Below are positions 11,411 to 47,241 of a stretch of DNA of 64,000 nucleotides, piece by piece. Source of the DNA: Crassaminicella thermophila (lineage in GTDB: Bacteria; Bacillota; Clostridia; Peptostreptococcales; Thermotaleaceae); assembly GCF_008152325.1 (NCBI RefSeq), contig NZ_CP042243.1, positions 935,026 through 999,025 on the forward strand, in the 5' to 3' direction. The notes under the pieces were generated by a model, which was not told the origin of the DNA, ran no database searches, and saw nothing but the letters and a program-made list of their open reading frames with translations. A program made the position numbers and the translations under genes. Each line of letters opens with the position of its first letter. Within the stretch, counting starts at the first letter, position 1.

Positions 11411-11590
11411 AAGTATGTGTTATTGAATTTATTTAAAATGCTAGAAAAATATAAATTGTATAATAAGAAAATATTTTGAAAAAATGCTTGTCTAAACTTC
11501 AAAAATATTATAAAATCTTATAATTATAAGCGAATATTTATACAAACGCGGATGGATATGGTCCGTTAAATTATGGAAGTGAGGGATTGT

Positions 11591-25437: not shown

Positions 25438-25621
25438 GCACATCAAGCTCCTTCCATATTGTATTAAAATAATGTCTAAACTCGGGAGCTTCTCTAGATG
25501 AAAGAGGTGTTCTTTCGTTTTCAAGGGTTAAGTTTATTGTATGAATACTTTTGACAAATGCAGGTCTTTTAGACAATACAATAACGCGATCTGCCATAGA
25601 TATGGCTTCTGCTATATACAC
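25427..25621 (-). pseudogene. 3' fragment of an ABC transporter ATPase (SsuB/TauB type), split by the prophage
   Basis: Only the last 60 or so codons remain, reading IAEAISMADRVIVLSKRPA to HVR. In this family that stretch follows directly on the switch histidine (THDI-AEA), so the prophage entered just after the H-loop. The Walker A, Q-loop, signature and Walker B parts must lie beyond the right end of the prophage, outside the window. The junction is near 25618, where the reading turns from IAEA into unrelated sequence. Confidence 0.85.
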
Positions 25622-25626
25622 AAAAT
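25608..25626. other. Probable attL junction of the prophage
   Basis: Similarity to the ABC ATPase stops at about 25618 (GCTATATACAC on the plus strand) and the recombinase terminator starts at 25624. The crossover must lie in this short stretch. The second site (attR) is outside the window, so the shared core cannot be defined. Confidence 0.7.
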
Positions 25627-25661
25627 GGCTACCATGTTTAATTTAAAACATAGTAGCCATT
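25624..25661 (-). terminator. Terminator of the serine recombinase gene
   Basis: The arms 25624-25639 and 25646-25661 pair over 15 of 16 positions (one C-A mismatch). It lies between the recombinase stop and the attachment junction, reading on the minus strand into TTTTGTG. Confidence 0.75.
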
Positions 25662-25664
25662 CTA

Positions 25665-27281
25665 TTATTTCTGGCAAAATATATTTATTTCAATTTTTTC
25701 TCCATCCCATGTAATACTATCAATAATCTGCTCTAATATTTTTTTCTGCTCATCAATTGTTAAATTTTCAAAATCAGTTGCAAATTTACGAATAGAAGAT
25801 TCTACTAATTCTAGATTCATCTGCTCAAGCAGAGTAGATTCTTGTACTTCATCCATGTTATTAATTTTTTTCTTAATATCAGTTATTTTATTATCTAAAG
25901 CTTCTATTTGTTGAATTATATATTTTGAAGCAGTAGAATTTGCATTTTTAGCAAGTTGCATTGTTAGATTATTGATAGATTCTTCATATTTTTTAAGTTC
26001 TTTTTGAAGTCTATTTTTTTCAGATTCATGAGATTTTGTTAGATGCTTAATATTATCTTTTTTTCTAGCGAGCTCTTTGTAGAGTTTATTTTCATCAAAA
26101 GCTAATTTTTTAATTTCATTAACTATAAGATCATCTACAACCTTACCATTTACATTAGGTATATCGCATTTTGATTTTCTAGAACGTTCTTTTAACAAGC
26201 ATCTATAATAATAGTTTTTAACTTCTCCATTTACTGTTTTGTAAGATACTCTCATTTTAGAACCACAATTATTACATCTTAAAAGTCTTGTTACAAGACC
26301 ATATTTACCTGTGCCAGCTCTAGGAGCTTTGCTACTATTTTTATTTAATATATTTTGTACCTTAATCCAATCTCTGGAGGCAATAATACCTTCGTGTTTA
26401 CCAACAGCAATAATCCATTCCGATTCATCTTTTCTTACAACCTTAGTTTTTTTCTTCTGATTGTGTTTATTAAATACCATGAGACCATGTTTATTATCAA
26501 AATCAAATAAAGGAGCTGCTACGTCAGCATTAAGGTTTTGAAAGTATTCATAGATAATATCATCAGCTATACAATATACTGGATTAGTAAGAATTAATTT
26601 TAATGCACTTTTATCAAAATTATTTCTATTTTTAGTAGTTATACCATTTTCTAGTGTCCAACTTTCAAGCTTGGTAAGGCTTTGGAATTCTAGGTATTTA
26701 TTATATATTTTTTTCACTAATTCCAGTTCTTTAGATATAGGAGCTAGCTTATAAGCTTTCCTTTTAACTAAGTTTTCGTCATGATATATAATAGCTTCAC
26801 TTTTATACCCTGTAGGGGTTTTACCACCTAGCCAACGTCCAGAGCGTGCTAGTTGATACATGTTATCTCGAATACGTTCAGCAATAGTTTCTCTTTCTAA
26901 TTGAGCAAATACAGAAGATATATACATCATAGCACGACCCATAGGAGTAGAAGTATCGAATTGTTCTTTTATAGAAACGAAGCTAATGTCATTTTCTTCA
27001 AGAAGCTCCATAGTAGAAGAAAAATCAGATATGTTTCTACTGATACGATCAAGCCTATAACATATTAATATATTGAATTTCTTTTTCTTTACATCTTTTA
27101 TAAGTCTTTGAAATTCAGGACGATCTACATTGCCCCCAGAAAATCCTTCATCTTCATATACTAAAAATTCATCAATATTAAAATGTTTTTGCGCATATTC
27201 TTTACAAAGTTCTATTTGGTTTTGTATAGATTCACCTTTTCCAGTAAATTTACTTTTTCTACTATATATTGCTGCTTTCAT
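25665..27281 (-). CDS. Large serine recombinase (prophage integrase)
   Basis: 538 residues. The resolvase catalytic domain covers about 1-150, with YSRKS (Ser10 as nucleophile) and the conserved CYRLDRISRNISDF. The recombinase domain follows, with the zinc ribbon CNNCGSKM and YYRCLLKERSRKSKC near residues 340-385, then a long coiled coil (about 410-480) that controls the direction of recombination. Length and order fit phage integrases of the phiC31/TP901 class. AAAGGTG precedes the ATG. It sits at the attL edge and should insert and, with a directionality factor, remove the prophage from the ABC ATPase gene. Confidence 0.95.
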   Translation of the reverse strand: MKAAIYSRKSKFTGKGESIQNQIELCKEYAQKHFNIDEFLVYEDEGFSGGNVDRPEFQRLIKDVKKKKFNILICYRLDRISRNISDFSSTMELLEENDISFVSIKEQFDTSTPMGRAMMYISSVFAQLERETIAERIRDNMYQLARSGRWLGGKTPTGYKSEAIIYHDENLVKRKAYKLAPISKELELVKKIYNKYLEFQSLTKLESWTLENGITTKNRNNFDKSALKLILTNPVYCIADDIIYEYFQNLNADVAAPLFDFDNKHGLMVFNKHNQKKKTKVVRKDESEWIIAVGKHEGIIASRDWIKVQNILNKNSSKAPRAGTGKYGLVTRLLRCNNCGSKMRVSYKTVNGEVKNYYYRCLLKERSRKSKCDIPNVNGKVVDDLIVNEIKKLAFDENKLYKELARKKDNIKHLTKSHESEKNRLQKELKKYEESINNLTMQLAKNANSTASKYIIQQIEALDNKITDIKKKINNMDEVQESTLLEQMNLELVESSIRKFATDFENLTIDEQKKILEQIIDSITWDGEKIEINIFCQK

Positions 27282-28424: not shown

Positions 28425-28463
28425 AATATTGTCGAAAGCTAATGTTTTTTAATATTGTCGAAA
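28425..28463. promoter_or_regulatory. Two tandem Spo0A-box-like repeats
   Basis: The 13-mer AATATTGTCGAAA occurs at 28425-28437 and again at 28451-28463. Each contains TGTCGAA, the Spo0A-box consensus. A single such 7-mer is expected by chance several times in a window this size, but two identical 13-mers 26 bases apart are not. They lie upstream of the DUF898-lipoprotein pair. They could also be the binding site of another regulator. Confidence 0.5.
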
Positions 28464-28837: not shown

Positions 28838-28870
28838 CAACTGATCTTTTGATCTAGTTGTTATTTTTTT
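28833..28870. terminator. Bidirectional terminator between micro-ORF and repressor
   Basis: AATAACAACTGATC pairs with GATC-T-AGTTGTTATT (one bulged T), loop TTTT, followed by a T run. It overlaps the stop of the micro-ORF and ends at the repressor stop. Confidence 0.85.
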
Positions 28871-29219
28871 AGGTATGTTTTTTTAAAACATCAAGTATTT
28901 TTTTGATGTCTTCGGGTGGAATTTCTTTATCTTGCATTTCTTTTGCTAATGTTAAGTATTCAACCCCTATATTGCGAAGTTCTTTTGGAACTTGATCTCC
29001 TGTAACCCTTATTACATCAGGATCATCTACAATTCCTAATAAATAATCTGTAGAAACATTGAAATAATTAGCAAGAAACTTTATTGTATTTGTATCTGGG
29101 TCTCTTCTTCCTTGTTCATACATACCTATTGTACTTGGTGATACATTTAATAGCTCAGCTAATTCCTGCTGAGTTATTTTCTTTTTACTTCTTAAGTGTT
29201 TCAATCTACTACCAAACAT
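28869..29219 (-). CDS. CI-like phage repressor (XRE family)
   Basis: 116 residues. The helix-turn-helix occupies about 6-60 (ITQQELAELLNVSPSTIGMYEQGRR), then a linker and a short helical C-terminus that probably dimerises. There is no LexA-like autocleavage domain, so SOS induction would need another route, for example the neighbouring LexA-controlled peptide. ATG 29219 is preceded by AGAGGTG. The gene is divergent from a Cro-like gene with shared ACAC-N5-GTGT operators. Confidence 0.88.
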   Translation of the reverse strand: MFGSRLKHLRSKKKITQQELAELLNVSPSTIGMYEQGRRDPDTNTIKFLANYFNVSTDYLLGIVDDPDVIRVTGDQVPKELRNIGVEYLTLAKEMQDKEIPPEDIKKILDVLKKHT

Positions 29220-29242
29220 AAATATCACCTCTAAAACATTTT

Positions 29243-29383: not shown

Positions 29384-29620
29384 GTGCAATCTCAAGAACG
29401 ATTAAAAAAGTTTAGAGAAAATAAAAATCTAAATAAAGAACAAATGGCAAGTTTACTAGATATTTCAACATCATTCTACGAGAAAATAGAAAAAGGAGAA
29501 AGAAATCCTAGTTATAATTTTATTAAAAAATTTAAACGTAAATTCCCAGAAGCAGATATAAACTATATTTTTTTTAACATACTACTACACGAAAAGTGTA
29601 AAAACAAAACTACTGCCTAA
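29384..29620 (+). CDS. Cro-like XRE regulator
   Basis: 78 residues, almost all one helix-turn-helix domain (LNKEQMASLLDISTSFYEKIEKGER). It starts with GTG behind GAGGAGG. As first gene of the rightward early operon, facing the CI-like gene, it should compete for the shared operators and favour lytic growth. One operator copy overlaps its 3' end. Confidence 0.82.
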   Translation: MQSQERLKKFRENKNLNKEQMASLLDISTSFYEKIEKGERNPSYNFIKKFKRKFPEADINYIFFNILLHEKCKNKTTA

Positions 29621-31450: not shown

Positions 31451-32233
31451 ATGAACGATTTACAAATTTTCAAAAACAGAGAATTTGGGCAGGTAAGAGT
31501 AGTTACAAAGGATAACGAGCCTTGGTTTGTGGGAAAAGATGTAGCAACAATTTTAGGGTATTCAAATGCATCTAAAGCAGTAATGGTACATGTTGATGAT
31601 GATGACAAAATTAAAGAAATGATAGCACATTCCCAAAATGGGAACATGGTTAAAAGTCAAACTACATTAATCAACGAAAGTGGACTTTACAGTTTAATTC
31701 TAAGTTCTAAACTTCCGAATGCAAAGAAGTTTAAAAGATGGGTAACAAGTGAAGTTTTACCTAGCATTCGCAAGCATGGAGCATACATGACAGATGATAC
31801 ATTAGAGAAAGCACTAACAAGTCCAGATTTTCTAATTCAATTAGCAACAAAGCTAAAAGAAGAAAAACAGAAACGAATTGAAGCAGAGAGAAAAATTGAA
31901 AAGGACAAGCCTAAAGTCCTATTTGCAGACGCTGTAAGTGCTTCTAAAACTTCAATATTGGTTGGAGATTTAGCAAAGCTTTTGAAACAAAATGGTATTG
32001 ATACAGGAGCAAAGAGACTATTTAAGTGGCTAAGAGATAACGGCTACTTAATAAGGAGAAAAGGTACAGATTATAATATGCCAACACAAAGAAGTATGGA
32101 GTTAGGATTATTTGAGGTTAAAGAAACATCTATAACGCATTCAGATGGGCATGTAACGGTAAATAAAACTCCAAAGGTAACTGGTAAAGGGCAACAGTAT
32201 TTTATCAATAAATTTTTAGAAAAGAGTGCGTAA
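31451..32233 (+). CDS. BRO-N/KilAC antirepressor-type protein
   Basis: 260 residues. The BRO-N domain spans about 5-105 (FGQVRVVTKDNEPWFVGKDVATILGY, AKKFKRWVTSEVLPSIRKHG). The KilAC (ANT) DNA-binding domain spans about 150-255 (VGDLAKLLKQNGIDTGAKRLFKWLRDNGYL). This is the standard layout of phage antirepressors. GAGGAGG lies before the ATG. Together with Rha and the AntA-type protein at 45499 it gives the prophage three antirepressor-like genes. Confidence 0.9.
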   Translation: MNDLQIFKNREFGQVRVVTKDNEPWFVGKDVATILGYSNASKAVMVHVDDDDKIKEMIAHSQNGNMVKSQTTLINESGLYSLILSSKLPNAKKFKRWVTSEVLPSIRKHGAYMTDDTLEKALTSPDFLIQLATKLKEEKQKRIEAERKIEKDKPKVLFADAVSASKTSILVGDLAKLLKQNGIDTGAKRLFKWLRDNGYLIRRKGTDYNMPTQRSMELGLFEVKETSITHSDGHVTVNKTPKVTGKGQQYFINKFLEKSA

Positions 32234-32968: not shown

Positions 32969-33097
32969 ATGGTGAACTACTGGGGGATATTCTTCATGAC
33001 TGCAATAGTGTTCATTCCGTTGATTCTTAATTACATGTTGCGGCATGAACTAGAGGAAAAAGAAAAAAGCACTAAGGTTGCTGCAACAACCAAATAG
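32969..33097 (+). CDS. Small single-pass membrane protein
   Basis: 42 codons, ATG 32969 to TAG 33095-33097, behind GAAAGGAGGTG, a near-perfect site. One hydrophobic helix (about 5-23) is followed by a charged, lysine-rich tail. No family recognised. It is the gene just before the Spo0E-like gene. Confidence 0.55.
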   Translation: MVNYWGIFFMTAIVFIPLILNYMLRHELEEKEKSTKVAATTK

Positions 33098-33164
33098 TGC
33101 ACTAAAAAAACAACGTTACGTGTATTATAGCAGATTTTAAGAAATTTATACAGGGGGACTAGAG

Positions 33165-33305
33165 ATGAATAGCTTAAAAATCGAAAAGAAAAGGTTAGAT
33201 TACTTAATTTCGAAATACGGCGATTTGCAACATCCATTGGTGCAAAAGCAATCTCAAATTGTGGACAAGCTCGTTGTTGAGCATATGAGAGGGGTGACAG
33301 CGTGA
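33165..33305 (+). CDS. Spo0E-like aspartyl-phosphate phosphatase (phage copy 1)
   Basis: 46 codons, ATG 33165 to TGA 33303-33305, behind AGGGGG. The protein has the Spo0E helical-hairpin pattern: RLDYLISKYG in the first helix and VQKQSQIVDKLVVEHMR in the second, with the family SQxxD motif (Ser30, Asp34). Spo0E proteins remove phosphate from Spo0A~P and so block entry into sporulation. In clostridia Spo0A is phosphorylated directly by kinases, so this is an effective brake. The gene overlaps the next one by four bases, within the early operon, which suggests expression during lytic growth or soon after infection. Confidence 0.75.
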   Translation: MNSLKIEKKRLDYLISKYGDLQHPLVQKQSQIVDKLVVEHMRGVTA

Positions 33306-33601
33306 AATGTAAAGTGTGTGGAAATGAGTTATATACAGATAGTTGGAGTGAATATGATTTTGGAACTGTAGAAACTATCGAAAGATGTGATAGATGTGGA
33401 TTTTTAGAACACTGGTCATATGGGAGATTACTATTAGCACTAGGTGGAAAATGTTTCTATGATGGTCCCGCACATGGGTACATTGGAGAAGAAGTGAAAA
33501 AAGAGTTAGAAGAAGCCTACGAGAAATTTGAGAGAGCAATAAAGAGGACCAGGAAGTATTATAAGAGGTCGGGTAAATTTAGGAGGAGCAAGCATGCCTA
33601 A
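33302..33601 (+). CDS. Small zinc-ribbon-like protein, unknown
   Basis: 99 residues, GTG start overlapping the Spo0E-like stop. An N-terminal zinc ribbon is suggested by CKVCGNEL and CDRCGFLEHW; the C-terminal 35 residues are very basic (KRTRKYYKRSGKFRRSK) and may bind nucleic acid. GAGGGG lies upstream. Confidence 0.65.
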   Translation: MKCKVCGNELYTDSWSEYDFGTVETIERCDRCGFLEHWSYGRLLLALGGKCFYDGPAHGYIGEEVKKELEEAYEKFERAIKRTRKYYKRSGKFRRSKHA

Positions 33602-33716
33602 GAAAATTAAGTTTCGAAACGTTGTAACAGGAACAGTAATAGAAGTTGGTACAGGTTTAGTTGATTATTATAGAGCGAATCCAAGTTTCAAAGAGATTAA
33701 GGAGGAAGAAAAATGA
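33594..33716 (+). CDS. Small protein, unknown
   Basis: 40 codons, ATG 33594 to TGA 33714-33716, behind AGGAGGAGC. Beta-type sequence (VVTGTVIEVGTG) with a polar end; both ends overlap neighbours by a few bases, as expected for a tight early operon. No family recognised. Confidence 0.5.
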   Translation: MPKKIKFRNVVTGTVIEVGTGLVDYYRANPSFKEIKEEEK

Positions 33717-34195
33717 AATTATATGAATTAACTGAGAATTATACAAACCTTTTAGACTTATTGGAGAACCCTGAGACACCACAAGAAGTTATACAAGAAT
33801 CTTTAGGAGAATTACAAGAAGAGTTTAACGTAAAGGCAGAGAACATATGCAAGCTGATTAAGAGCATTGATCTCGAAGCGAAAGCAGTTAAGGAAGAAGA
33901 AAAAAGATTAGCTGATAGAAGGAAAGTATTAGAGAATAGAGTTTTGTACCTAAAAGAGTATTTAGACAGCAATATGAAGGCTATAGGTGTGAAAAAAATT
34001 AAAGGCAATATATTTACCCTATCAATACAAAAAAATCCTGCTAACGTGAATATACACACTACAGATGCAATTCCTAAAGAGTATATAGTTGTAAAAGAAG
34101 AATTTGACAAAAAAGCTATTAAAGAAGCATTGAAGAGAGGAATAGAAGTTCCAGGAGCTGAGCTCAAACAAACAGAATCGTTGAGAATTAGGTAG
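33713..34195 (+). CDS. Siphovirus Gp157-like protein
   Basis: 160 residues, mostly coiled coil (about 15-100), ending in the basic beta region LSIQKNPANVNI. This is the pattern of the Sipho_Gp157 family, named from a Streptococcus thermophilus phage and sometimes linked to phage resistance. It lies in the replication-recombination module. AAGGAGGAA is the site; the start overlaps the previous stop (ATGA). Confidence 0.78.
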   Translation: MKLYELTENYTNLLDLLENPETPQEVIQESLGELQEEFNVKAENICKLIKSIDLEAKAVKEEEKRLADRRKVLENRVLYLKEYLDSNMKAIGVKKIKGNIFTLSIQKNPANVNIHTTDAIPKEYIVVKEEFDKKAIKEALKRGIEVPGAELKQTESLRIR

Positions 34196-35348: not shown

Positions 35349-35948
35349 ATGAATGTATATGAAAAGCTAATGAATATTCAATCGAAGCTAAAAGCTCCTA
35401 AAAATCAATACAACTCTTTTGGAAATTACCATTATAGGAGCTGTGAAGATATCTTAGAAGGATTAAAACCGTTATTAAATGAGCATAAAGCAATATTAAC
35501 ACTAAATGATGAAGTTTTACAAATAGGCGATCGATTCTATATCAAATCAACTGCTACATTCACAGATATAGAGAAAGGTGAAAGTATAAAAGTAGATGCT
35601 CTTGCAAGAGAGGATTTAAATAAAAAAGGAATGGACTTAGCACAAATAACTGGTAGTGTATCGTCATACGCTAGGAAATACGCTTTAAACGGATTATTTT
35701 GTATAGATGATACAAAAGACAGTGATGCAACAAACAATCATGGTAAGGGTGATAAGGACAAGCAGTCAAAGAAATTAAGTGAAGCACAAGTTAAAAGACT
35801 ATATGCAATAGGAGCTAAAAATGGATATGATGCTGAATGCGTGAAGAAAGCAGTATTGAAGAAATATAGTAAAACAAAAGCAGAAGATTTAACTAAACAA
35901 GAGTATGATGAACTAATCAAAAACATAGAAGCTAATCCTAAGAAATAG
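35349..35948 (+). CDS. ERF-family single-strand annealing recombinase
   Basis: 199 residues. The ERF core is seen in KAPKNQYNSFGNYHYRSCEDIL and ITGSVSSYARKYALNGLFCIDD; the latter is the hallmark of the family. A polar linker (about 128-145) leads to a small C-terminal helical domain. It anneals single strands in phage recombination and genome circularisation, together with SSB (43163) and RusA. AAGGAG precedes the ATG. Confidence 0.92.
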   Translation: MNVYEKLMNIQSKLKAPKNQYNSFGNYHYRSCEDILEGLKPLLNEHKAILTLNDEVLQIGDRFYIKSTATFTDIEKGESIKVDALAREDLNKKGMDLAQITGSVSSYARKYALNGLFCIDDTKDSDATNNHGKGDKDKQSKKLSEAQVKRLYAIGAKNGYDAECVKKAVLKKYSKTKAEDLTKQEYDELIKNIEANPKK

Positions 35949-37300: not shown

Positions 37301-37725
37301 TGGGACCAGAGGGACATATACAAACGATATTAACACCTAATGGGAAAATTGAGGATGAACTAAGAATAACAATACCAGATATTCCACCTAGCAATAATAA
37401 GTACATGGGTAGGGGTTCAACATACACTCAGGCTTTTCAGTATCAAGCAGAAAAGAAAAAATGGCAGTCGGTAATAGGTTGGCTAGTCCGAGAACAAAAA
37501 TGGGCTCAGAATCCATTAAAAAAGGCCGTGGTAGAAATTACCTATTTCTTCAAAGACAAAAGACGAAGAGATCCAGATAATTATAGCGGGAAATTCATAC
37601 TAGATAGCTTAGTTCGAGCAGGAGTGTTGCAAGATGATAGTTTTGGAAATATCGAATTAATCTTGAAAGGGAATTATGACAAGAAAAATCCTAGAACAGA
37701 GGTAAGGGTTAGGAAAAATGAATGA
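37300..37725 (+). CDS. rusA: RusA-family Holliday junction resolvase
   Basis: 141 residues. The family core is KDKRRRDPDNYSGKFILDSL followed by GVLQDDSF, holding the catalytic aspartates. RusA cuts Holliday junctions made during phage recombination. ATG 37300 overlaps the previous stop (TGATG) with GGTGGAGGA upstream; the reading from 37228 runs through the previous gene and lacks a site. Confidence 0.9.
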   Translation: MGPEGHIQTILTPNGKIEDELRITIPDIPPSNNKYMGRGSTYTQAFQYQAEKKKWQSVIGWLVREQKWAQNPLKKAVVEITYFFKDKRRRDPDNYSGKFILDSLVRAGVLQDDSFGNIELILKGNYDKKNPRTEVRVRKNE

Positions 37726-38570: not shown

Positions 38571-38584
38571 GGGGGAACTTGATA

Positions 38585-43121: not shown

Positions 43122-43144
43122 GCTCCTGGGACATGCCTGGGAGC
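43122..43144 (+). promoter_or_regulatory. GC-rich hairpin in front of ssb
   Basis: GCTCCTGGG (43122-43130) pairs with CCTGGGAGC (43136-43144) over nine positions including two wobble pairs, loop ACATG. It ends three bases before the ssb ribosome binding site and has no T tail. It may adjust ssb translation or message stability. Confidence 0.5.
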
Positions 43145-43162
43145 GAAAGGGGGAATGCAAAA

Positions 43163-43528
43163 ATGAACAGTGTTAATCTTATAGGAAGATGGACAAGAGA
43201 TCCAGAAATGCGATTTACTCAAAACGGAAAAGCATTAACAAAAGTAAGTATAGCTGTTAATAGAACTTTTGGAGAAGGAGCAGATTTCTTTGAAGTTGTG
43301 ATATGGGGAAAGATTGCTGAGAATACAGCACAATATACGAAAAAAGGTAGCAAAGTAGGAATAGAGGGTAGGCTACAACAGGAAACATGGGAAAAAGACG
43401 GACAGAAAAGAAGCAAAGTTGTGATAGTAGCTGAGAGAGTAGAATTTCTTGATAATAAAAATAGCCAATCAAATAATGAAATAGATGGATTTCAAGCAAT
43501 AGATGATGACGATGATATACCATTTTAA
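43163..43528 (+). CDS. ssb: Single-stranded DNA-binding protein
   Basis: 121 residues. The OB fold starts NSVNLIGRWTRDPEMRFTQNG and includes FFEVVIWGKIAENTAQYTKKGSKV; the acidic tail DDDDDIPF at the end is the partner-binding tip of bacterial SSBs. AAAGGGGGAA precedes ATG 43163; the reading from 43133 covers that site. It serves phage replication and recombination with ERF and RusA. Confidence 0.94.
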   Translation: MNSVNLIGRWTRDPEMRFTQNGKALTKVSIAVNRTFGEGADFFEVVIWGKIAENTAQYTKKGSKVGIEGRLQQETWEKDGQKRSKVVIVAERVEFLDNKNSQSNNEIDGFQAIDDDDDIPF

Positions 43529-43548
43529 GCGTTAAGGGGGCAAAATCG

Positions 43549-44073
43549 ATGGAGGATATTCAATATAGAAGAACAGAAGGAATATTATATAGGCATTTTA
43601 AGAAGATCAAGAGGATCGAAAGATTAAAGTACGATATAGAGAATACAAAGCAGACTATACATAAGATACAACAAGACCTGAGAAACGTGAACGTAGAGCT
43701 ATCGGATTGTGTTAAAGCTATAGATTATAGCCAGGACAGAGTACAATCTAGCATTGTTACATCAAGTGCTGTAGAAAGAGAGTTGGAACGAATTACGAAT
43801 AAACTTTTAAATGAACTTAAATATAAAATCCAAAGGAAATATAAGTTAAAAGCAAGATTGAGAAAAATAGAGGAAGATGTTAAAAGGATTGAAAAAATAC
43901 TTAGTGATCTTACCGAAGAAGAAATGCAGATTGTAGAACTTAGGTATTCGGAACATAGAACAAATAGAGCTATAGAAAAGATACTATACATGGAAGGAAG
44001 GCCTAGTAGTTATGTAAGTATTTGGAGGAAGAAAAATAAAATAATAGAATATATTTATAGTCAATTGAAGTAG
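43549..44073 (+). CDS. Sigma-70 region 4-like late transcription regulator (DUF1492/ArpU-like)
   Basis: 174 residues: a long coiled-coil N-terminal part (about 15-115) and a C-terminal helix-turn-helix (LTEEEMQIVELRYSEHRTNRAIEKILY, then SSYVSIWRKKNKI). This is the plan of phage late-gene activators that lie just before packaging genes. AAGGGGG lies upstream. A -10 element without a -35 (44121) follows it, which fits control by an activator. Confidence 0.72.
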   Translation: MEDIQYRRTEGILYRHFKKIKRIERLKYDIENTKQTIHKIQQDLRNVNVELSDCVKAIDYSQDRVQSSIVTSSAVERELERITNKLLNELKYKIQRKYKLKARLRKIEEDVKRIEKILSDLTEEEMQIVELRYSEHRTNRAIEKILYMEGRPSSYVSIWRKKNKIIEYIYSQLK

Positions 44074-44120
44074 ATTGAAACAAAAATGAAACAAGATAGA
44101 AACATTTAAAATTAAAAATC

Positions 44121-44203
44121 TATAATATAATTGTATTGTAGAAATAGTTACCCCCTGATATCTTCTAATGACTAAGGCAGTCGAGAAATCGGCTGTCTTT
44201 TTC
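44121..44203 (+). promoter_or_regulatory. Putative late promoter and terminator
   Basis: A perfect TATAAT at 44121-44126 has no recognisable -35. Downstream an 11-bp stem (44174-44184 with 44189-44199, loop GAAA) is followed by T residues. The unit could be an activator-dependent late promoter with an early-transcript terminator, or a promoter giving a short RNA of about 70 bases. Confidence 0.5.
44174..44203 (+). terminator. Terminator at the end of the early region
   Basis: AAGGCAGTCGA pairs with TCGGCTGTCTT (11 positions, two wobble), GNRA-type loop, T run to 44202. Confidence 0.85.
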
Positions 44204-44226
44204 ATGTATAAAAATGAGGTGATCGC

Positions 44227-44436
44227 ATGGAATTACACAGATGCAAAGTTAAATTTCATAAAGGCAAGATAGTATGCGCTAGTGAAATTCTATGTTCAGA
44301 TTGCCCTGAAAAAGATAAATGCGAGGATATAGATATTTATGTAGATAGTAAGTACTGGGGAAGCAAGGAATGCATGAGCCACGATAGCTATGAAAGGAAA
44401 AATAAGAGGATCAGGCAGAAAGGGTGGGGGAAATGA
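44227..44436 (+). CDS. Small cysteine-rich protein, unknown
   Basis: 69 residues behind GAGGTGATC. Cysteines in HRCKVKF, ILCSDCPEKDKCED and KECMSHD suggest a compact zinc-binding fold; the end is basic. It lies right after the early terminator. Function unknown. Confidence 0.58.
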   Translation: MELHRCKVKFHKGKIVCASEILCSDCPEKDKCEDIDIYVDSKYWGSKECMSHDSYERKNKRIRQKGWGK

Positions 44437-44705
44437 GTATACCTGAGAAAATATGGGGTATTAAATAGAACTATTGCAAGATGTGTATCACGTGGTGTAA
44501 ATGATTATCATAATAAAAAGAAACAAAAGATAATAATACAAAAAAACTAAAAGATGAAATAAGTGAAAAAAAGGAAGCTTATTAATAGAAATTGGAATAT
44601 TTCTTGGCGTAGGATTTGTATTGTTTGGAAGAGGAGAATATTGGATGTATAATAATATTTATTAGTTTTGCTTTAGCTGGTTTGCTTAATCATGAAAATA
44701 AATAA
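44433..44705 (+). pseudogene. Decayed small membrane protein gene, several frameshifts
   Basis: No intact gene lies between 44437 and 44807. Translating across frames gives a chain: MSIPEKIWG from ATG 44433, then NRTIARCVSRGVNDYHNKKK, KLKDEISEKKEA, IEIGIFLGVGFVLFG and IFISFALAGLLNHENK, ending at 44703-44705. Together these would make a protein of about 100 residues with a charged middle and two membrane helices. Four shifts are needed, too many for read errors. Confidence 0.5.
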
Positions 44706-44807
44706 GTAGTCAATAAGTTAAACGATTTGTGTCGAAATTTGCGAGTGGAATATAAAGGATACTGTTTTCTTGTAGAGAATTCTAATAATTAGGAAGGAGG
44801 AGGACGT

Positions 44808-44990
44808 ATGGGAGATAATGATAAAAAAGTAGCTGACAATTCTTTTGAAGCATCTGAAAATCTGAAAGATCATGTGGCAGGTGCTATAGACAAAGCTTCG
44901 AAAGGAGATTTTGCAGGAGCAGCTAAAGATGCAATGGATGCTGTTGGGGATATGGCACAAGTTGCAGGACATGTAGTAGAAGGAAATTAA
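44808..44990 (+). CDS. Small alanine-rich protein, unknown
   Basis: 60 residues behind AAGGAGGAGG. The sequence is amphipathic and Ala/Asp-rich (GAIDKASKGDFAGAAKDAM), like small apolipoprotein-type helical repeats. It has its own terminator, and the gap before it could hold a promoter, so it may be expressed separately from the early and late operons. Confidence 0.6.
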   Translation: MGDNDKKVADNSFEASENLKDHVAGAIDKASKGDFAGAAKDAMDAVGDMAQVAGHVVEGN

Positions 44991-45013
44991 AAAGAGCCAA
45001 CCGGCTCTTTTTT
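44991..45013 (+). terminator. Terminator
   Basis: AAAGAGCC pairs with GGCTCTTT, loop AACC, followed by further T residues; directly after the gene ending at 44990. Confidence 0.88.
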
Positions 45014-45029
45014 CATGCAAAAATTCAAG

Positions 45030-45296
45030 TAGCACAACAGGTTAAATCAAATTTAACGTGCTACAATTATTTGTTATTTTTGCATACTATCATATTTTGA
45101 TAGTAATTTATCCAGTAATTGGCTTAATTCAATTACTTCTTGATCCAGTAAATTTTCTTCTTTATGCTTGATTAATTCGTTTAGTGCAAATCTAGTTTGT
45201 TCAATCTGATCTAAGAGAGATTTTAATTTATTGTTATATTTATCCATTTTCCATACTCCTTTTCATTCGTGTATTTAGATTTAACCTGTCGCACTA
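45030..45296. repeat. Inverted-repeat-bounded cassette holding a Spo0E-like gene
   Basis: TAGCACAACAGGTTAAATC (45030-45048) recurs in reverse complement as GATTTAACCTGTCGCACTA (45278-45296), 16 of 19 positions identical. The single gene between them runs against all its neighbours. The left repeat is extended by a second stem (GTTAAAT/ATTTAAC and GTAGCAC/GTGCTAC, 45029-45064), which can act as the gene's terminator. The layout suggests an inserted unit of about 270 bp, but no target duplication is evident. Confidence 0.55.
45074..45247 (-). CDS. Spo0E-like aspartyl-phosphate phosphatase (phage copy 2)
   Basis: 57 codons on the minus strand, ATG at 45247, TAA at 45076-45074, behind AAAAGGAG. 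Two helices, LLDQIEQTRFALNELIKHKE and VIELSQLLDKLLSKY, with the family SQxxD motif (Ser42, Asp46) fit Spo0E-type phosphatases that act on Spo0A~P. It differs strongly from copy 1 (33165), so it is not a recent duplicate. Its opposite strand and flanking inverted repeats suggest independent acquisition and expression, possibly in the lysogen. Confidence 0.75.
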   Translation of the reverse strand: MDKYNNKLKSLLDQIEQTRFALNELIKHKEENLLDQEVIELSQLLDKLLSKYDSMQK

Positions 45297-45358
45297 TTGT
45301 AAATTCTAATGGAAAAATATAACAAAGAGTAAATCATTTCAAAATATATAGATAATTT

Positions 45359-45383
45359 AGACACTGTAAAAGGTGTCTTTTTT
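45359..45383 (+). terminator. Terminator before the antirepressor leader
   Basis: AGACAC pairs with GTGTCT around an 8-base loop, followed by TTTTTT (45378-45383). Confidence 0.75.
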
Positions 45384-45397
45384 AATGCAAATTTTTA

Positions 45398-45490
45398 GGT
45401 TTGCAGGATAACAACCTGCCACCTCTTAGGAGTTACGCATGGTGGGGGTAAGTTCCTACCACTCCTAGTTATCAATAAAATTCTAGGAGG
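45398..45490 (+). promoter_or_regulatory. Switch-like leader RNA of the antirepressor gene
   Basis: A hairpin GCAGG/CCTGC (45403-45419) is followed by a long hairpin: TAGGAGT (45427-45433) with ACTCCTA (45461-45467), and GGTGGGGG (45441-45448) with TTCCTACC (45453-45460). CTCCTAG (45462-45468) can instead pair with CTAGGAG (45483-45489), the gene's ribosome binding site. The two pairings exclude each other, which is the logic of a translational riboswitch or thermosensor. No known class is recognised. Confidence 0.55.
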
Positions 45491-45498
45491 TAGTCGAT

Positions 45499-46326
45499 AT
45501 GAGAGTGGCAAAAATCAATGATGTAAAAGTAAAAGTATTTGAGAAAAAAGAATTAATTGAGAAGCTAGGATTTACAGAAGAAGATGCAAAATTAGTTATG
45601 AAGTACCAAAAGACATTTCCTGAGTTATTACAGGATGGTGTAGAAGGGTTTGTTATTGACGCTGAAACTTTATGGGAGCAATTAGGTAAGCCGAATGGGC
45701 AATTTAGTAAATGGGCTAATAAAAGAATAAAGGAAGTGTTTAAGAATGGCTTAGAATGGAGTTTTAGCCGGATTAGGATAAAAGATGGTAGACCAAAACA
45801 AGTAATAAAATTAACTTTGGAAACTGCTAAACATGTAGCAATGGCTACTGGTTTAGATGGCAATTCGAGTAAAAAAGTAAGAGAAAAGGGAAATCTCGTT
45901 AGAAACTATTTTATAAAAATGGAAAAAGCTTTAAGAGATTATGAGTATTGGATCATGGTTAGAGAACCACAGAAAGAAGGATATAAAAAACTAAGTGAAG
46001 TATTAGATACAAATTACCAATTAACCCATGAAGGAAAATCAGCACCTAATTATGTATTTTCTAATGAAGCAGATATGATCAATAGAGCTTTACTTGGTAT
46101 GTCGGCTAAAAAGCTTCAGGCACTATTGGATACAAAAGATAAAGCAACAAGAGAGCATTTTACTGTGGAGATCAATAAGACTATTTCTGAATTACAGACA
46201 ATGGATATGGGTTTAGTAATGGCAGGACTTGACTATGAAACAAGGAAAAAGACTATAACAAATATTTGTAGTACGAAATATAAATATATGCAGCTGATAG
46301 TAAAAGAATTAAAGAAAACTGCATAA
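45499..46326 (+). CDS. AntA/AntB-type antirepressor
   Basis: 275 residues. The AntA/AntB domain lies at about 60-140 (NGQFSKWANKRIKEVFKNGLEWSFSRIR, then LTLETAKHVAMATG and NLVRNYFIKMEKALRDYE). The C-terminal half is helical. Such proteins bind phage repressors and trigger lytic growth. The AGGAGG site can be masked by the upstream leader structure. The gene sits between the early region and packaging genes. Confidence 0.85.
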   Translation: MRVAKINDVKVKVFEKKELIEKLGFTEEDAKLVMKYQKTFPELLQDGVEGFVIDAETLWEQLGKPNGQFSKWANKRIKEVFKNGLEWSFSRIRIKDGRPKQVIKLTLETAKHVAMATGLDGNSSKKVREKGNLVRNYFIKMEKALRDYEYWIMVREPQKEGYKKLSEVLDTNYQLTHEGKSAPNYVFSNEADMINRALLGMSAKKLQALLDTKDKATREHFTVEINKTISELQTMDMGLVMAGLDYETRKKTITNICSTKYKYMQLIVKELKKTA

Positions 46327-46356: not shown

Positions 46357-47241
46357 ATGGCAAGAGTAAGAAGCCCAGATAGTATAAAAGCAGAAGAAAT
46401 GTATCTAAAAAGTAAAGGTGAAATAGAATTAGTTGAAATTGCAAAAGAATTGAATGTATCACCTGGTACAGTTAGATCATGGAAGAATAGATATAAGTGG
46501 GATGATAAATTAAATGGTAACATAAATGCAACGTTGCAAAAAGAGAAGAAAAAGAAACGCAACGTTGCGAAAAAAGAAAAGAAAAAGGAAATTAAGACGG
46601 ATGAAAAAATATTAGAGCAATTAGAAGATGCTGAACTTACTGAAAAGCAGCGTCTTTTTTGTTTGTATTACATAAAGAATTTCAATGCAACAATGGCAGC
46701 AATCAAGGCAGGATATTCGAAAGATACAGCACACGTAATAGGGCATGAAAACCTTAGGAAACCTAAAATTGCAGCTGAGATAAGAAGGTTAAAAGGAGCA
46801 ATAAGACAAGAAGTATTCATTGATGCTATGGATGTACTAAATAAATACATCAAAATAGCTTTTGCAGATATAACAGACTACGTAACCTTTGGTCAGAAGG
46901 AAGTGCCTGTAATGGGACCATTTGGACCAATAGAAGATGATGAAGGTAATCCAGTGACGAAAATAGTAAACTATGTTGATTTTAAGGAAAGCAATATGGT
47001 AGATGGAACAATAATCGCTGAAGCAAAACAAGGGAAAGATGGGATATCTATTAAGTTGGCTGATAAGATGAAAGCTCTCGATAAACTATCTATGTATTTT
47101 GATCTATTCCCTGATAAGTTTAAGCGCCAAGTAGAAGAAGAGAAGATTAAGATACAAAAAGAAAAATTAAATTTAGATGGTAAAGATAAAACAATGAAAG
47201 TAGTGATTGTTGATGATATAGAAGGTGTAGAAGATGATTAA
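46357..47241 (+). CDS. Terminase small subunit
   Basis: 294 residues. The N-terminal helix-turn-helix (LVEIAKELNVSPGTVRSWKNRYKWD) is followed by a lysine-rich linker, then the terminase small subunit domain LTEKQRLFCLYYIKNFNATMAAIKAGYS. It recognises the packaging start on phage DNA. The long C-terminal part is as in XtmA/PBSX-type proteins. It overlaps the large subunit gene by eight bases. Confidence 0.92.
   Translation: MARVRSPDSIKAEEMYLKSKGEIELVEIAKELNVSPGTVRSWKNRYKWDDKLNGNINATLQKEKKKKRNVAKKEKKKEIKTDEKILEQLEDAELTEKQRLFCLYYIKNFNATMAAIKAGYSKDTAHVIGHENLRKPKIAAEIRRLKGAIRQEVFIDAMDVLNKYIKIAFADITDYVTFGQKEVPVMGPFGPIEDDEGNPVTKIVNYVDFKESNMVDGTIIAEAKQGKDGISIKLADKMKALDKLSMYFDLFPDKFKRQVEEEKIKIQKEKLNLDGKDKTMKVVIVDDIEGVEDD

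Follow-up and report, generated by a model that had tools for sequence, protein, structure and literature searches.

A bacterium that has become a spore is sheltered from phages. Spo0E-like aspartyl-phosphate phosphatases include Spo0E, YisI and YnzD. The signature of this family is SxxxD, and Spo0E of B. subtilis is reported to depend critically on its aspartate (PMC11115286). The same article describes a short clostridial Spo0E of 53 residues in C. difficile, which carries SxxxD, is reported to interact with both Spo0A and RstA, and restrains sporulation to the extent that disruption of spo0E approximately doubled it (PMC11115286). Spo0E–Spo0A interactions are reported there to be species-specific, and the C. 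difficile protein to act elsewhere too (PMC11115286).

Related genes have been described in phages. In temperate phages, viral homologs of Rap, Spo0E or AbrB occur beside RRNPP quorum-sensing systems, and manipulation of host sporulation has been proposed (PMC10075063). Brevibacillus phage SecTim467 carries a Spo0E-like gene in a putative transposable region, with a product 96% similar to a host Spo0E (PMC4909266). Gut-phage sporulation genes, spo0A among them, have been listed, and phage sigma-factor and spo0A homologs reported, in an article whose main text contains no occurrence of 'spo0E' (PMC10294663). Both phage Spo0E genes and the idea of steering host sporulation are already in print.

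Here we follow up an earlier note on the window, by which we mean the whole 64,000-nucleotide stretch of the Crassaminicella thermophila chromosome that was analyzed. A prophage in this window carries a Spo0E-like gene in its putative early region and a second Spo0E-like gene on the other strand. With the PF09388 phosphatases (2c0s, 2bzb) the early protein has in common a predicted two-helix hairpin, the SxxxD signature, small size and a host with Spo0A; it differs from them in being encoded by a phage early gene, in its length of only 46 residues, in a V before D and an H in helix 2, and in a Q that is not kept in the subfamily. It resembles the C. difficile protein in its shortness and in SxxxD (PMC11115286); its own gene, however, lies in a prophage. 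The RRNPP-linked phage genes likewise encode viral Spo0E homologs proposed to manipulate host sporulation, (PMC10075063), but here a conserved hairpin precedes the gene, and the opposite strand carries another Spo0E gene. None of three HTH genes searched with Pfam at the repressor end showed a TPR domain. Unlike the SecTim467 gene, the one described here belongs to a divergent subfamily and stands in an early region (PMC4909266). What is newer is that the early gene belongs to a divergent subfamily, that it comes in a cassette with a hairpin, and that one prophage has two such genes. Among the titles and abstract openings listed, none concerned paired Spo0E genes in one prophage or a hairpin before such a gene.

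Results

The Spo0E-like gene stands among early phage genes, as the earlier note had placed it, judging from Pfam-identified neighbors and gene order; early timing is likewise read from the gene order of the window prophage. A serine recombinase gene (25665–27281, minus strand) lies at the left end. An XRE-type repressor (28869–29228, minus strand; PF01381, 64.9 bits) is divergent from the early genes, the first of which is an HTH gene in a Cro-like position (29384–29620, plus strand; PF12844, 40.9 bits). Rightward follow an antirepressor with Bro-N and KilAC domains (31451–32233, plus strand; PF02498 and PF03374), an excisionase-like gene at 32226 and a 42-residue ORF with a hydrophobic stretch that ends in VAATTK (32969–33097, plus strand), and then the Spo0E-like gene. 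Beyond it lie a cysteine-rich 99-residue gene matching no family over cutoff (33302–33601, plus strand), a Gp157-family gene (33713–34195, plus strand; PF05565, 180.8 bits), an ERF-type recombination gene (35349–35948, plus strand; PF04404, 166.9 bits), an HNH nuclease gene at 37718 and an NA37 gene at 38579, with the terminase large subunit at 47234 after the early genes. The order around the Spo0E-like gene looks like that of an ordinary temperate-phage early region.

Three further features lie toward the prophage ends. Near the integrase end, two TTGTCGAA words at 28429 and 28455, 26 bases apart, stand upstream of a DUF898 gene. Near the right end, an actin-like gene with a small ORF behind it (ALP_N; L025:8433–9567) is reminiscent of ParM/ParR plasmid partition. 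The right end also carries a 727-residue ORF with a GxxGxGKS-like motif (L025:10176–12359), which has a sub-cutoff match only, to a type IV coupling-protein family.

The early Spo0E-like ORF occupies exactly 33165–33305 on the plus strand, begins with ATG preceded by AGGGGG and encodes 46 residues, in agreement with the 46-codon gene of the earlier note. Its TGA overlaps the GTG start (33302) of the next ORF in a shared GTGA, so that the translational overlap described before is confirmed. A profile search matched the protein to PF09388 (Spo0E-like) at 25.8 bits against a cutoff of 23 (E 1.1e-5), and a six-frame search of the whole genome, which returned 13 PF09388 matches, scored it at 24.1 bits, again over the cutoff. 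The same search found a match in one of 14 control genomes, that of Bacillus subtilis. For this protein the PF09388 match is modest. PHROGs offered no family at E<=0.1, and NCBIfam none above its cutoff.

For comparison, we built a profile on 35 Spo0E proteins drawn from the own genome and its relatives (4 from the own-genome search and 31 from 31 of 31 loci), none of which comes from the four phage elements compared. The window protein scored 19.7 bits against this profile and the best of 20,000 letter shuffles 16.5 bits; because no shuffle reached the score of the protein, the family match is more than chance. All five members of the early subfamily pass the Pfam cutoff, the four others at 24.2–27.7 bits.

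The signature of the window protein is S30-Q-I-V-D34. S30 and D34, which form SxxxD on helix 2, are present in all five subfamily members, and in the corresponding columns of the 35-protein set the S is invariant (35 of 35) and the D nearly so (33 of 35). The SQxxD motif claimed earlier is present here as SQIVD, but its Q is not fixed in the subfamily: three of the five members lack it, these sister copies reading SKKVD, SKKVD and SRKVD. The strict SQxLD form is found in neither the window protein nor these copies. Since Q is also lacking in 9 of the 35 comparison proteins (26 have it), SQxLD does not define the family. Two other positions set the early phage subfamily apart in the alignment. 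Every comparison protein has L, M or I before D and Y or F in helix 2 (35/35 each), whereas the early subfamily has V at the first position and H at the second.

AlphaFold2, given an alignment of three sequences, predicted the two-helix hairpin that the earlier note had anticipated, with helices at residues 2–18 and 24–45 (mean pLDDT 93.2, pTM 0.70). Foldseek ranked 2c0s, a Bacillus anthracis protein aspartic acid phosphate phosphatase, first among the PDB matches of this model (probability 0.98; TM 0.82 on the query; rmsd 1.2 over 44 columns; E 0.34). None of the 30 PDB matches listed reached E 0.001, and the other 29 are unrelated proteins with probabilities below 0.5; given these values, the structural support is one of ranking only. 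When a profile was made from eight Spo0E-like proteins, its leading matches were 2bzb and 2c0s (E 1.9e-5 and 2.9e-5). Membership in the Spo0E family, the central claim of the earlier note, is thus borne out by a Pfam match over cutoff, retention of S and D, the predicted helix hairpin and a Bacillus phosphatase as the best-ranked structural match.

Close homologs, 80–85% identical, occur in two further chromosomal prophages, P2 (C1:1972179) and P3 (C1:2084216), and in the 36.6-kb contig C2. A fifth member, 72% identical, lies in another genus of the same family as the host (genome G015), where it adjoins a divergent pair of repressor-HTH genes and a RecT gene, a locus that by its sequence appears to be a prophage-like early region. 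In all five members the spo0E stop codon overlaps the following start codon, although the following gene is of three kinds: the window, P2 and P3 have the same 99-residue gene there, C2 a 70-residue ORF and G015 a 48-residue ORF. Among the four own-genome copies of the early gene, changed codons were synonymous and nonsynonymous in the ratios 9 to 9 (window–P2), 10 to 9 (window–P3), 10 to 7 (window–C2), 3 to 1 (P2–P3), 3 to 6 (P2–C2) and 6 to 7 (P3–C2). The two kinds are about equally frequent, which gives no strong sign of purifying selection.

The phage-like C2 is a contig of its own (L013, L014). The bases at its end and at its start correspond to neighboring segments of the window prophage (43139–43544 and 43549–44432), which suggests a circular phage genome or a phage-plasmid.

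Subfamily searches found matches in three of 393 genomes from an order-wide draw (the own genome, G015 and one weak match at E 9.7e-4) and in three of 59 genomes, the own included, where the third (G005) is weak at E 5.2e-4 and its protein fits ordinary Spo0E better (40.1 bits to PF09388). By these counts, the early subfamily looks narrow within the genomes searched. PF09388 overall is found in 32 of the 59 genomes (own included), in every listed genome of some families and in none of others. Seven of the 13 PF09388 matches in the own genome lie in four phage elements; four are of the early type, each in a phage element, and three of a second type.

Searches for the early protein beyond these genomes returned little. 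Among named phages there was one unconvincing record (E 7), and among plasmids two weak ones (E 0.9 and 3), both from Paenibacillus and both annotated as Spo0E family. Viral contigs gave only two loci, both on IMGVR_UViG_2883367716 contigs; one is 100% identical, and its contig probably comes from the same genome as the window. Pattern searches of GTDB genome contigs, whose reach is limited enough that G015 was missed too, gave 35 and 136 hits and no relative.

A conserved hairpin (33069–33100, plus strand) precedes the early gene by 64 nt, within the last codons of the upstream ORF. Its sequence, GCACTA A GGTTG CTGCAA CAACC AAA TAGTGC, is identical in the four own-genome copies, and a hairpin with the loop CTGCAA precedes early spo0E in all five aligned copies. 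The G015 version (L026, about 11550–11582) reads GCCC AAGA GGTAG CTGCAA CTACC AATTA GGGC. There, two synonymous codon changes have turned one T-A pair of the inner stem into A-T, and one A-T pair of the outer stem has become C-G, the latter read by eye with the outer stem shifted one column in the alignment. Only two compensatory changes separate the two versions, so their support for a hairpin structure is suggestive. The RNA fold of 33065–33110 has an energy of -13.8 kcal/mol (z -4.2, with 0 of 200 shuffles as good), and a 66-base G015 stretch has z -3.6; longer stretches that include the leader are not unusual in folding (z -1.3 and -0.9). Rfam searches of a 501-base region gave four matches, each far below its gathering score.

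This hairpin lies in the VAATTK or VAATTN tail of upstream ORFs that are of three kinds among the five elements, one common to the window and P2, another to P3 and G015, and a third in C2. Allowing up to three mismatches, the 24-base hairpin core occurs four times in the own genome, once before each early spo0E, and its reversed control not at all. In viral contigs the hairpin pattern was found in four stretches, two on IMGVR_UViG_2883367716 contigs and two on others (L038, L039). The 420 bases translated after the hairpin in L038 and L039 hold no spo0E-like ORF, and the hairpin alone is therefore not specific to spo0E. Between hairpin and gene, GTATTATA (33122–33129, plus strand) is invariant in all five copies and is a possible -10 element of a candidate spo0E promoter; no clear -35 was seen before it, and the promoter scan gave no plus-strand site there.

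The second Spo0E-like gene of the window prophage, absent from the earlier note, lies on the minus strand at 45074–45247 and encodes 57 residues with SQLLD. It outscores the early gene on PF09388 (42.4 against 25.8 bits), and its protein is letter-for-letter identical in P2 and P3 (L005, L006). C2 has no similarity to 44433–45560 and no second PF09388 match, and among named phages a single, unconvincing record matched the second protein (E 4). A promoter-like site, TTTACA-16-TATATT (45343–45370, minus strand), agrees with the consensus at 10 of 12 positions; it is weak evidence, since 6.2 sites of this kind are expected in the stretch and 10 were found. Terminator-like hairpins lie after the gene (44989–45012; found by the minus-strand scan, with a plus-strand T run read from the sequence) and upstream of it (45359–45378, plus strand; terminator scan), two in a stretch where 0.3 are expected. 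The arrangement suggests that the second gene is placed like one expressed apart from the lytic program.

The 0A box has the consensus TGTCGAA, plus longer forms. In a search for such boxes, none lay within 700 bases of the early gene in the window and none near it in P2. In C2 a 0A box stands about 350 bases before the early gene, and in P3 one stands about 590 bases from it. Another at 44730, near the second gene, is also present in P2 and P3. Its conservation is uninformative because the window, P2 and P3 stretches are 97–99% identical, and we built no case on any of these boxes.

Two host genes are split at prophage ends. The C-terminal half of a Mn-catalase-family gene (PF05067) lies at C1:1011468 (plus strand; L025:12455–12832) and the N-terminal half at C1:2091290 (minus strand; L012:5097–5291). 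We take this gene to be cotJC, with a cotJB-like ORF before it; the titles and abstract openings listed gave no instance of cotJC as an insertion site. The other is an ABC transporter ATPase gene, recognized from its motifs by eye. The left end of the window prophage has its C-terminal part (window 25440–25640, minus strand), and its N-terminal part is at C1:2034820–2035446 (plus strand; L074:2820–3446). In both genes about 1.1 Mb separates the halves, which are on opposite strands and lie at ends of the window prophage and P3. These two prophages have in common one stretch of 4.5 kb at 98.4% identity and another of 3.7 kb at 95.9%. Such a reciprocal pair of splits is consistent with an inversion spanning about 1.1 Mb via these common stretches, or with an assembly chimera there.

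Discussion

The early gene probably encodes a Spo0E-family sporulation brake that acts on Spo0A~P, a reading in which we infer binding, dephosphorylation and the effect on spores from the family, and timing from the gene order. The host has a Spo0A (PF08769, 160.5 bits, C1:1485393), and its genome also encodes SpoIVA (418.4 bits). Once the repressor is lifted, or upon infection, the small two-helix protein would be made alongside the other early proteins. It would lie against the receiver domain of host Spo0A and lower Spo0A~P, and the cell would be kept out of sporulation while the phage replicates.

The main rival, which we consider unlikely, is that this Spo0E-family protein has a different partner, such as a response regulator or an RRNPP-type regulator, and steers motility, competence or a quorum system. 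Its departure from relatives at two otherwise kept positions would suit such a partner, as would the C. difficile Spo0E, which is reported to interact with RstA and to repress toxin and motility, independently of Spo0A according to the authors (PMC11115286). Set against this are the presence of Spo0A in the host and the distribution of PF09388, whose occurrence in 32 of 59 genomes, scored by profile alone and covering every listed genome of some families and none of others, is compatible with a tie to sporulation.

We regard as more improbable still a family member that is no phosphatase and instead blocks Spo0A or is a competitor of the Spo0E proteins of the host. The C. difficile Spo0E has been modeled covering the phosphorylation site of Spo0A (PMC11115286), and what stands between S and D is variable, with SKKVD or SRKVD in the three sister copies; the aspartate reported as critical, however, is kept in all five members. 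A chance resemblance to Spo0E in some unrelated, short and helical phage protein is very improbable, for although the sequence is short, its bit scores modest, the Foldseek E value 0.34 and 29 of the 30 PDB matches unrelated, none of 20,000 shuffles reached its score, all five members pass the Pfam cutoff, both motif columns are occupied by the expected S and D, and 2c0s is the sole PDB match with a probability above 0.5.

Returning to the brake on Spo0A~P, the second gene lies off the early strand, so that a purely lytic-phase reading may be half the picture. Alone on the other strand, this gene would probably act in the lysogen. We tentatively propose, as a less probable reading than the early brake itself, that the prophage has a two-phase brake: an autonomous Spo0E gene for lysogeny, and a mobile cassette, consisting of a structured leader RNA and a translationally coupled spo0E, that is switched on lytically, with the hairpin tuning the early brake.

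Phages have been suspected of denying their hosts the refuge of the spore (PMC10294663, PMC10075063). The Spo0E pair described here may let a virus keep its host from becoming a spore. A natural prophage with Spo0E genes on opposite strands is a clean test case for the role of each gene, and its very short, divergent early protein could reveal which Spo0E residues are really needed.
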